Shown: in pieces, positions 13,720-22,177 of the stretch
Position numbering within the stretch: the stretch's first letter is position 1
Layout: every line of letters starts with the position of its first letter
Source of the DNA: a virus
DNA: 22,181 bases
Strand: one strand, 5' to 3'
IMG/VR virus record: IMGVR_UViG_3300032240_000831
Location: 1-22,181 of that record
Program-made: the position numbers and the translations under genes
The notes under the pieces: generated by a model
The model's database searches: none
What the model was told of the DNA's origin: nothing
The model's input: the letters and a program-made list of their open reading frames with translations, nothing else

Positions 13720-13748
13720 TTGACAACATGGTAAAACCAGTGTATAAT
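13720..13748 (+). promoter_or_regulatory. Sigma70 promoter with spacer operator (class A)
   Basis: TTGACA (13720-13725), 17 bases, TATAAT (13743-13748). The dyad TGGTAAAACCA (13729-13739) begins at spacer base 4, as in the promoters at 17393, 17980 and 19442. AGGAG (13773-13777) serves the ATG at 13783. It drives the 48-aa gene and the two genes after it. Confidence 0.92.
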
Positions 13749-16281: not shown

Positions 16282-16421
16282 ACCCCGCTGTAGCCATTAC
16301 GCTATTATAGGCTATTGCGCGATAGCGCACAGCGCAGAGAAGCGCGGACAATACCCCGCTGTAGCCATTTTAGAAATAGTGAAAACTTCGCTGCATGCAA
16401 GCGCCGAATACCCCGCTGTAG
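16282..16421 (+). repeat. Three direct repeats ACCCCGCTGTAG
   Basis: ACCCCGCTGTAGCCATT occurs at 16282-16298 and 16353-16369; the first 12 bases recur at 16410-16421. Start-to-start distances are 71 and 57. The intervals hold short self-complementary GCGC tracts, so each unit could form a hairpin. Confidence 0.85.
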
Positions 16422-16785: not shown

Positions 16786-16863
16786 GGGCCCTTAGCTCAT
16801 GTTGGTTAGAGCAGTGGACTCATAATCCATTGGTGCTGTGTTCGACTCACAGAGGGCCCACCA
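16786..16863 (+). tRNA. tRNA with anticodon CAT (Ile2 or elongator Met), CCA encoded
   Basis: A 78-nt cloverleaf. The 7-bp acceptor pairs GGGCCCT with AGGGCCC, then A and encoded CCA. The D stem is GCTC/GAGC, the anticodon stem GTGGA/TCCAT with loop CTCATAA (anticodon 16821-16823), and the T stem CTGTG/CACAG with TTCGACT. G1-C72 excludes initiator tRNA. The acceptor and D arm resemble bacterial tRNA-Ile2 (AUA decoding after lysidine modification) more than elongator Met, but this call is tentative. It is transcribed from 16721, and the structured RNA starts 18 bases downstream. Confidence 0.95.
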
Positions 16864-16881
16864 AGTTGTTTATAAACCCGA

Positions 16882-17125
16882 GGATGTGCGATATATACTG
16901 CAGGACAAGATCAGGAGCTAGAAGTCTGGGAGATCTTCGAGCGCAGTTGAGGTAACGACCTAGTCCGACCGTAAGCACGCCGAATCAGCGACCAAGTACT
17001 TCTAGTGGTCAAGGCTCGTCATCGAGAGATGGCAGGAACATGCTGGCGGGGACAGTGACAGGATACTTGCCTAGTCACTGAACTGAGAATGGGGCTTCGG
17101 CCCCTGTCTCTTATATACGCTGTCC
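16882..17125 (+). ncRNA. Unassigned structured RNA, about 245 nt, closed by a long-range helix
   Basis: No ORF is plausible, yet pairing is extensive. Ends: GCG-A-TATATA (16888-16897) pairs with TATATACGC (17112-17120) with one bulged A, extended by GGA (16882-16884) with TCC (17123-17125). Inside: CTAGAAGT (16918-16925) with ACTTCTAG (16998-17005); hairpin AGGT-AACG-ACCT (16950-16961); GTCATC-GAGA-GATGGC (17018-17033) with a GNRA loop; a 10-bp stem with one bulge (17053-17062 with 17070-17080); and GGGGC-TTCG-GCCCC (17091-17104) extended by GAGA/TCTC. The last helix has no real T-run, so it looks structural rather than terminating. It is probably cotranscribed with the tRNA. RNase P, tmRNA and group I core motifs were sought and not found. 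Confidence 0.65.
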
Positions 17126-18298: not shown

Positions 18299-18340
18299 TA
18301 ACCTTAGAGGTTGACAGGGCTTTGGTTTTACCATATAATA
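18296..18340 (+). repeat. 45-bp promoter repeat, copy 1
   Basis: Matches 19926-19970 at 41 of 45 bases by eye, including AACC-TTAGA-GGTT before the -35, GACAGGGC after it, TTGGTTTTACC and TATAAT. Copies this similar behind unrelated genes indicate duplication of a promoter cassette. Confidence 0.88.
18311..18339 (+). promoter_or_regulatory. Sigma70 promoter with spacer operator (class B)
   Basis: TTGACA (18311-18316), 17 bases, TATAAT (18334-18339). The operator TGGTTTTACCA (18323-18333) begins at spacer base 7 and touches the -10, unlike class A. AAAGGAG serves the ATG at 18367. Confidence 0.93.
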
Positions 18341-19792: not shown

Positions 19793-19944
19793 CTTTCCGG
19801 CATTGGTGCCACTACAAGTGGTTAGAGCATCAGGAAGAGCTGTCTAGCTATAGTCAGCCTCTTCCATACACATCCACAGAGTACTTCAACCGGTACAAGT
19901 GGTGGCTCAAACGGGAGTTCCGAGCTAATAACCCTAGAGGTTGA
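19789..19944 (+). CDS. Possible small gene with GTG start, 51 aa
   Basis: GTGA joins the stop of the previous gene to a GTG-initiated frame of 51 codons ending in TGA at 19944, inside the -35 of the next promoter. The product, MTFRHWCHYKWLEHQEELSS then EYFNRYKWWLKREFR, is aromatic and basic with amphipathic helices. The coupled start, the lack of stops across the whole gap and the end position all resemble genuine neighbours. No ribosome site is evident, so it is moderately supported. Confidence 0.5.
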   Translation: MTFRHWCHYKWLEHQEELSSYSQPLPYTSTEYFNRYKWWLKREFRANNPRG

Positions 19945-21081: not shown

Positions 21082-21102
21082 ATCCTTGAATAACCCTAGG
21101 GG

Positions 21103-21131
21103 TTGACGGGTCTTTGTTTTAGTGTTATAAT
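21103..21131 (+). promoter_or_regulatory. Sigma70 promoter with degenerate operator
   Basis: TTGACG (21103-21108), 17 bases, TATAAT (21126-21131). TTTGTTTTAG replaces TTGGTTTTACC, so the regulator may bind weakly or not at all. The preceding AACCC-TA-GGGGTT dyad is retained. AAAGGAGC serves the ATG at 21159. Confidence 0.9.
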
Positions 21132-21158: not shown

Positions 21159-21428
21159 ATGCAAAGCACTATTAAAAACGCAAACATCGCGTATGTCAAA
21201 GTTCAAGTAAACAAAAAGCTACAAACTGTTCGTGTGTTAGCTACTTTTGACAGTACTAAAAGAGACAAAGACGGTAATATTATCGTTAACATTACAAACG
21301 CTGTTTTTAAAAGCGGAGACGTAGCAACTTTAGACACACAAACTGCAGAACAGCGCTCTGTGTCAATTGCTAATACTATCGCACTAGCCAAAAAAGTGTT
21401 GCGTACAGACAACATCTTGTTAGTATAA
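21159..21428 (+). CDS. Small phage protein, 89 aa, unknown
   Basis: An 89-residue protein rich in Asn, Thr and Val. Alternating strands (IAYVKVQVNKKLQTVRVLATF, then GNIIVNITNAVFKSGDVATL) are followed by a helix SIANTIALAKKVLR. Codons are more A/T-rich than in the genes at 18035-21029, hinting at separate origin or lower expression optimisation. It is monocistronic, followed immediately by the hairpin at 21435-21467 that also carries the next -35. No function is recognised. Confidence 0.8.
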   Translation: MQSTIKNANIAYVKVQVNKKLQTVRVLATFDSTKRDKDGNIIVNITNAVFKSGDVATLDTQTAEQRSVSIANTIALAKKVLRTDNILLV

Positions 21429-21434
21429 CCCTAC

Positions 21435-21467
21435 AGCGCATAGTGTTATTATTTGACACTATGCGCT
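21435..21467 (+). terminator. Terminator-like hairpin overlapping the next promoter
   Basis: A perfect 11-bp stem, AGCGCATAGTG (21435-21445) with CACTATGCGCT (21457-21467), followed by TTCC. The -35 TTGACA (21453-21458) spans the loop and the first bases of the 3' arm. Confidence 0.8.
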
Positions 21468-21481
21468 TTCCATGTTATAAT
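21453..21481 (+). promoter_or_regulatory. Sigma70 promoter fused to an upstream hairpin (class C)
   Basis: TTGACA (21453-21458), 17 bases, TATAAT (21476-21481). The spacer is the 3' arm of the hairpin plus TTCCATG, with no TGGT-N3-ACCA. Confidence 0.93.
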
Positions 21482-21507
21482 ACACACATACACTAAAAGG
21501 AGCAACT

Positions 21508-21651
21508 ATGACAGACCTACAACACGAACTCGCTGTAGCAATGCTACGCATACAAGACCTGCTAGAGGAAGCGGAACTTGACGAGCATGAGGCAATACAA
21601 AATGCTTACAATGCGCTTGCATGTGCTATTGACGAAGAACTTGTCAAATAA
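21508..21651 (+). CDS. Small acidic helical protein, 47 aa, unknown
   Basis: ATG 21508 follows AAAAGGAGC and the promoter at 21453. The 48-codon frame ends in TAA at 21651. The product (MTDLQHELAVAMLRIQDLLE, EAELDEHEAIQNAYNALACA, IDEELVK) is acidic and almost entirely helical, probably a short helical hairpin. Promoter, ribosome site and the following hairpin frame it exactly as a monocistronic unit. No target or function can be given. Confidence 0.78.
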   Translation: MTDLQHELAVAMLRIQDLLEEAELDEHEAIQNAYNALACAIDEELVK

Positions 21652-21657
21652 CACTAC

Positions 21658-21690
21658 AGCGCACAGGGTCTTTAGTTGACGCTGTGCGCT
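21658..21690 (+). terminator. Terminator-like hairpin overlapping the next promoter
   Basis: A 9-bp stem AGCGCACAG (21658-21666) with CTGTGCGCT (21682-21690), followed by TTCC. The -35 TTGACG (21676-21681) lies in the loop, immediately before the 3' arm. Confidence 0.78.
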
Positions 21691-21704
21691 TTCCATGTTA
21701 TAAT
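21676..21704 (+). promoter_or_regulatory. Sigma70 promoter fused to an upstream hairpin (class C)
   Basis: TTGACG (21676-21681), 17 bases, TATAAT (21699-21704). The GCGCTTTCCATGT sequence of the spacer is shared with the promoter at 21453. Confidence 0.92.
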
Positions 21705-21734
21705 ACACTTACACTAAACAAAACGGAGTTGAAC

Positions 21735-22121
21735 ATGCAGACATTTACTACACTTAACACAAACGGACGCGGCCACTGGAGCAACACTGCTAAAGCAGTA
21801 GACATTGTGAAGCTGGACTTGCAGTACATTAACAACGAGAGAGACTTCGGCGAGCTGTGCGTGTACTTTAACACAGACACTTGGGACGTTAACGCATTAG
21901 GACTCATTTACACAGACAAACAGTTTATGCAGGAACTGCGTACATACTTGCAAACGCTGGGCTTTGCTGAAGCTGAAGCAAACGATGTAAGCTACAGCGA
22001 GCAGGGGATGCAAAGCGATGTGTATGTTAGCTGTGACGTAGGGGCCGCATTTATCGCAGGGCTTGCACGCTTGGACCCTGCACATGTGCAAAACGTTTGG
22101 GAAGAGTGCGCGGACATCTAA
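21735..22121 (+). CDS. Phage protein, 128 aa, unknown
   Basis: The frame is open from 21684, but that part is promoter. ATG 21735, with CGGAG (21724-21728), gives 128 residues starting MQTFTTLNTNGRGHWSNTAK. Alternating strands and helices follow: DFGELCVYFNTDTWDVNALG, FMQELRTYLQTLGFAEAEAN, QSDVYVSCDVGAAFIAGL. The acidic alpha/beta make-up suggests a soluble globular protein. It is monocistronic, ending 16 bases before the next hairpin-promoter. No family is recognised. Confidence 0.83.
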   Translation: MQTFTTLNTNGRGHWSNTAKAVDIVKLDLQYINNERDFGELCVYFNTDTWDVNALGLIYTDKQFMQELRTYLQTLGFAEAEANDVSYSEQGMQSDVYVSCDVGAAFIAGLARLDPAHVQNVWEECADI

Positions 22122-22137
22122 TAGTGTACTAAAGTGG

Positions 22138-22165
22138 AAGGGCTTTGGTTGACACTAGAGCCCTT
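22138..22165 (+). terminator. Terminator whose loop contains the next -35
   Basis: A 7-bp stem AAGGGCT (22138-22144) with AGCCCTT (22159-22165), continuing into TT. The entire TTGACA (22149-22154) lies in the 14-base loop. This is the clearest of the three hairpin-promoter fusions. Confidence 0.82.
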
Positions 22166-22177
22166 TTGCGTTATAAT
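22149..22177 (+). promoter_or_regulatory. Sigma70 promoter at the right edge (class C)
   Basis: TTGACA (22149-22154), 17 bases, TATAAT (22172-22177). Its gene lies beyond the window. Confidence 0.92.

Follow-up and report, generated by a model that had tools for sequence, protein, structure and literature searches.

Genomic context

The window, the whole stretch of DNA analysed here, is a virus record of 22,181 bases that encodes a DNA ligase, a tail fibre and an endolysin in its left part. From ~17 kb rightwards, it contains many small ORFs lacking convincing family matches, most of which lie behind near-perfect sigma-70 promoters. Three of these ORFs, all on the plus strand, frame the region described below: an early gene of 89 aa (21159–21428), an ORF of 47 aa (21508–21651) and a gene of 128 aa (21735–22121), the last of which served as an anchor for finding relatives. 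Neither the 89-aa nor the 128-aa protein belongs convincingly to a known family; the former has a homologue of 98% identity in the related contig L009 and only a weak PHROG match. The related contigs span 151–383 kb, and the T4 major capsid family Gp23 scored above cut-off in four of eight of them, which places the window, itself devoid of a capsid gene, in a large T4-like phage group. No close relative of the group was found in the isolate-phage collection, and a Megablast search with the right half of the window matched one tRNA only. Xanthomonas phage X1 provided a single distant homologue and has no early promoters of the kind described here.

Other elements lie near the tRNA-Met gene (16786–16863). 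Just downstream of it (16880–17100) is a candidate new structured ncRNA of ~200 bases, for which no match was found in Rfam. Homologues are present in L082, L074, L123, L026, L079, L049, L107, L090, L093 and L009, and in the window, as in eight of the eight related loci checked, the element follows a phage tRNA-Met. Among 11 sequences, 95% of cells are paired and 33 of 58 pairs show compensatory double changes, with a covariation of 0.41 compared to 0.18 for shuffled and at most 0.09 for slid alignments. Upstream of the tRNA-Met gene, ACCCCGCTGTAG repeats (window 16283–16420; L009 364–530) are possible iterons or regulatory repeats.

Three hairpins built into promoters

Three units, each on the plus strand, combine a stem-loop with a predicted sigma-70 promoter, and the two are physically joined in every case. 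Each hairpin begins 6–12 bases after a stop codon, and its 3′ arm lies within the 17-base spacer that precedes TATAAT. The promoters match the consensus at 12/12, 11/12 and 12/12 positions in units 1, 2 and 3, respectively. This shared design of a hairpin at the −35 box, a 17-base spacer and TATAAT is the one described in the original prediction.

The hairpin of unit 1 (21435–21467), AGCGCATAGTGTTA-TTATT-TGACACTATGCGCT, has 14 pairs closing a UUAUU loop in the RNA, with a minimum free energy (MFE) of −22.3 kcal/mol (z −7.7). Its −35 box, TTGACA (21453–21458), contributes one base to the loop and five to the 3′ arm, and the −10 box, TATAAT (21476–21481), is preceded by TGT (extended −10). Unit 2 (21658–21690) folds as AGCGCACAG...CTGTGCGCT with nine pairs and three more in an inner GUC/GAC helix (MFE −22.8 kcal/mol, z −4.7), and homologues of it are present in A3. 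The TTGACG box (21676–21681) occupies the outer loop, with its GAC forming part of the small inner helix, and TATAAT follows at 21699–21704. In unit 3 (22134–22169), GTGGAAGGGCTTTGGT-TGAC-ACTAGAGCCCTTTTGC forms 16 RNA pairs including G.U (MFE −22.2 kcal/mol, z −4.6), and its homologues show paired changes. Here the first T and the final A of TTGACA (22149–22154) close the helix around a TGAC tetraloop (UGAC in RNA), and TATAAT lies at 22172–22177. None of 200 shuffles per unit folded as well as the native sequence, for all three units.

The stem lengths of 11, 9 and 7 bp originally given are correct as Watson–Crick pairs, but become 14, 9 + 3 and 16 once G.U pairs are counted. The placing of the −35 box in or beside the loop is refined by the positions given above, with five of the six bases in the 3′ arm in unit 1. 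A further remark, that only one stem runs into a longer T-run, holds, since TTTT follows the stem in unit 3 alone. Units 1 and 2 are homologous, sharing CTACAGCGCAyAG...CTrTGCGCTTTCCATGTTATAATACAC with one U-A/C-G paired change, and therefore the three units are not three independent examples. The claim that layout rather than sequence is conserved is supported well beyond chance (see below).

Eleven consensus promoters of the window were scored, each against its own shuffles, and a −35-spanning hairpin exceeded expectation at units 1–3 only (p = 0.0005, 0.002 and 0.001), and p was above 0.2 at the remaining eight. A fourth promoter of the cluster (21093–21131, plus strand) has a small hairpin, AACCCTAGGGGTT, at its −35 box (TTGACG at 21103), and no −35-spanning hairpin above chance was found there. 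Small palindromes of the form AACCytAGrGGTT occur at 18299–18313, 19929–19943 and 21093–21105, their final bases being the TT of the −35 box; they may be remnants or shortened versions of the class with an upstream hairpin, described below.

Excess of −35-spanning hairpins in related phages

Related contigs were collected through the spacer motif GGTAAAACC, which belongs to another promoter class, and through homologues of the 89-aa and 128-aa proteins, without consulting hairpins. They yielded 874 promoters, defined by TATAAT and at least four of six −35 bases. Stems spanning the −35 box with a score of at least 20 were found at 57 of the 874, compared to 7.2 expected when upstream arms were swapped among promoters; at a score of at least 24, the counts were 35 and 1.2. 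After redundancy reduction, 48–50 of 677 promoters retained such stems (score at least 20). Loop centres within −10 to +10 of the −35 box numbered 52, against 3.6 in shuffles, at a threshold of 20. The exact 23-base pattern from units 1 and 2 had zero matches in viral contigs, and no convincing match to the 73-base consensus unit was found among isolate phages.

The excess of hairpins occurs at three places: upstream of the −35 box (class I), across it (class II, the type of units 1–3) and in the spacer (class III). Class II has ~45 non-redundant members at 33 loci. Some of these are textbook cases, for example AAAACCGGCTC-TTGACA-GAGTCGGTTTTTT and AAAGGGCC-TTGACG-GGCCCTTTCTTTTT, in which the −35 box is a flush hexaloop. 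Class I (CCCTA...TAGGGTCTTTGG-TTGACA; 40 at a score of at least 20) resembles class II in sequence context and junctions, but its hairpin stops before the −35 box. The two classes also differ in the frequency of the spacer motif GGTAAAACC, found in 17 of 40 class I promoters compared to two of 45 in class II, from which it is nearly absent (177 of 631 other promoters; p = 1.6e-4).

A second class of early promoters, comprising 179 of the 676 non-redundant ones, has the palindrome GGTAAAACC in the middle of its 17-base spacer. The motif lies at 13720, 17393, 17980 and 19442 of the window, inverted at 18311 and 19941, and also occurs in L009 and in viral contigs, where at least 119 stretches carry it. 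It resembles the operator of a phage regulator.

Conservation of the stem as RNA

Compensatory stem changes, which the original prediction had proposed seeking in relatives, are present in two families and in an ortholog of unit 1. In the family with the fixed loop TTGACAACAG (one member TTGACACTAG), 40 of 40 cells are paired and both bases have changed in five of the eight pairs, with a covariation score of 0.75 compared to 0.21 after shuffling. The family that includes units 1 and 2 is 94% paired, with a covariation of 0.329 against 0.091. Both alignments were built in part from sequences first noticed by their pairing, and therefore the arm-swap test, the loop-centre shuffles and the ortholog comparison of unit 1 weigh more. 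Among stems with a single mismatch, G.U outnumbers A.C by 15 to 3 (p = 0.0075), as expected for a plus-strand RNA hairpin and not for a DNA dyad.

The unit 1 comparison is anchored by orthologous flanking genes in the window, L129 and L009. The stems are AGCGCATAG/CTATGCGCT in the window, ACAGCGTAG/CTACGCTGT in L129, with three paired changes, and AGCGCATAG/CTATGCGCT in L009. The −35 box is TTGACA in the window, TTGCTC in L129 and TTGCCC in L009. As all three phages retain the stem while the −35 box decays in two of them, the hairpin is selected in its own right. TTGCCC serves as the −35 box in four of 45 class II promoters and in three of 631 others (p = 5e-4).

Turnover at orthologous junctions

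Loss of stem pairing from a retained promoter had been named in advance as evidence against the design, and the relatives show both outcomes: L129 and L009 retain the unit 1 stem as the −35 box decays, but in the L136–L139 lineage the stem of unit 2 (junction 2) is gone and the promoter persists; the 3′ arm there has lost its partner, and a small hairpin lies immediately upstream. In other relatives, junction 2 carries hairpins of class I. At junction 3, L129 carries a cassette of the unit 2 type instead of the GTGGAAGGGC type. In L009, neither promoter nor hairpin separates the genes resembling those for the 47-aa and 128-aa proteins, and insulation is therefore dispensable there. Cassettes have thus been swapped or lost at orthologous junctions, one is a chimera, and stems diverge between copies. 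We conclude from these junctions that a hairpin near the promoter is usually kept, while its exact placement turns over.

Two regions of L009 (2460–2530 and 5270–5320) contain a CCCTA / TAGGG / CCCTA arrangement that permits two alternative hairpins, each excluding the other, of which one lies upstream of the −35 box and one spans it. An attenuator-like switch was considered for unit 1 of L009 and set aside, as the upstream pairing is not kept in units 1 and 2 of the window.

Terminator character

The units resemble ordinary intrinsic (Rho-independent) terminators in that the stop codon precedes a GC-rich stem, which leads into T-rich bases. Within the class II spacer, the T frequencies at positions 10–13 are.64,.82,.60 and.47, compared to.22,.28,.30 and.21, and at least four T in five bases occur in 22 of 45 members against 66 of 454 (p = 4e-7). 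The median d-score is −18 for class II and −56 for hairpins away from promoters, with positive values in 29% and 4.5%, respectively. In the window, unit 3 (+0.8) alone passes the classic threshold, ahead of unit 1 (−3.8) and unit 2 (−26), although the score is a simple one that imposes one simple helix and underrates unit 2 in particular. Units 1 and 2 fall short because their stems run into TTTCCATG; U-tracts are good in unit 3, as they are in many relatives, and weak (TTT only) in units 1 and 2. The differences from ordinary terminators are that a −35 box of functional appearance occupies the loop and inner arm, that the T-tract is bounded by the 17-base spacer and that d-scores are often below threshold. 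Since most class II scores are of this kind, termination may be partial or assisted by a factor.

Comparison with PeSL cassettes

Cassettes termed PeSL (promoter early stem-loop) have reportedly been described in T4-type phages by Arbiol et al. 2010 and by Comeau et al. Their combination of a strong sigma-70-like promoter with a stem-loop between small variable genes of T4-like phages, and their turnover between relatives, are features shared by the elements described here, which also sit between small ORFs in a T4-type phage group. We scanned the whole genome of the prototype RB49, in which PeSLs were reportedly described. Its 65 promoters include ten of class I, several with long T-tails, and 11 of class III, in which the hairpin fills the spacer, but none of class II. 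Units 1–3 thus differ from the RB49 elements in that the −35 box is within the hairpin, the stem sequences differ and the U-tract is located in the spacer. The layout is best regarded as a variant of the described PeSL element type and not as a new design principle. Terminators with the −35 box in the loop were not found in a search of a limited literature collection, and this is weak evidence of novelty.

An RB49 spacer hairpin is exemplified by TTGACA-GGGGATC-GGT-GATCCCC-TATACT. At ~11 promoters of RB49 (NC_005066), the spacer is such a hairpin, GGGGATC-n-GATCCCC, abutting the −10 box without a U-tract (for example 115005–115033, 121708–121736 and 158941–158969, minus strand).

Proposed function and alternatives

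We propose that the units are composite terminator-promoters, representing a variant of T4-type PeSL cassettes in compact form; from the sequence features above, we consider this reading probable. Once transcribed together with the upstream gene, the stretch would fold into a hairpin that, with the U-rich bases in the spacer of the next promoter, would stop transcription fully or partly, roughly 15–20 bases short of the following start site. In its double-stranded DNA form, it would serve as a strong promoter of the host sigma-70 type from which the next gene is transcribed. By lying in the loop or the inner arm, the −35 hexamer would constrain the stem least. The predicted benefit is the insulation of small early genes within about 80 bases, and we infer that insulation of adjacent transcripts, as originally suggested, is the best reading of a hairpin, a T-tract and a promoter in succession.

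Some of the same observations could be read differently. Chance overlap of stems and promoters would account for about seven of the 57 stems at a score of at least 20, and single weak cases may be of this origin; for the whole set, it is already refuted by the excesses of 57 against 7 and 35 against 1.2, by covariation and by the absence of such stems from the equivalent scan of RB49 (0/65), and its probability is practically negligible. The overlap with the −35 box, a classic repressor position, might instead suggest that the dyad works as DNA, either as the operator of a dimeric regulator or as a cruciform gating the promoter. We reject this highly improbable reading: the arms differ between units and phages, leaving no shared operator, the 15:3 bias towards G.U is that of an RNA, and the operator-like GGTAAAACC is nearly excluded from class II.

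A role as RNA could also be a different one, in which the hairpin is mainly a stabilizer or processing signal of the mRNA 3′ end, blocking 3′–5′ exonucleases or being cut by a double-strand RNase, and termination occurs elsewhere or by Rho. Such a role would explain RNA-level conservation of the stem together with the weakness of the U-tracts in units 1 and 2; it is nonetheless unlikely, as it leaves unexplained both the T-enrichment just after the stem and d-scores above those of other hairpins in the same contigs. The swapping, loss and chimerism of cassettes at orthologous junctions, and the long identical stretches common to units 1 and 2, bring to mind the idea, raised for PeSLs, that gene shuffling by recombination at the cassettes is the main reason they are kept, with secondary effects on transcription. 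Recombination would favour identity, yet the stems diverge with compensation, and as the main role it is distinctly unlikely. It is, however, compatible with a composite terminator-promoter rather than exclusive of it.

Sliding and re-initiation of RNA polymerase after termination have been described in vitro. In addition to compact insulation, a polymerase ending its RNA at the hairpin might stay on the DNA, within about 20 bp of the next start site, and re-initiate there. We regard this hand-off as improbable; if it were true, neighbouring early genes would recycle polymerase along the cluster.

The fusion of hairpin and promoter is real, conserved and mechanistically sensible, and its function is most likely insulating. 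Selection can thus act on one stretch of ~45 bases at two levels, the hairpin in the RNA and the promoter in the DNA, with the −35 box as the hairpin loop, and the hairpin can persist at the cost of the −35 consensus. Predictors that score promoter or terminator signals singly will mis-annotate such junctions. The ~45 non-redundant composite elements of these phages, with their differing stems, are a natural set for tests of terminator-promoter interference and for compact insulators.
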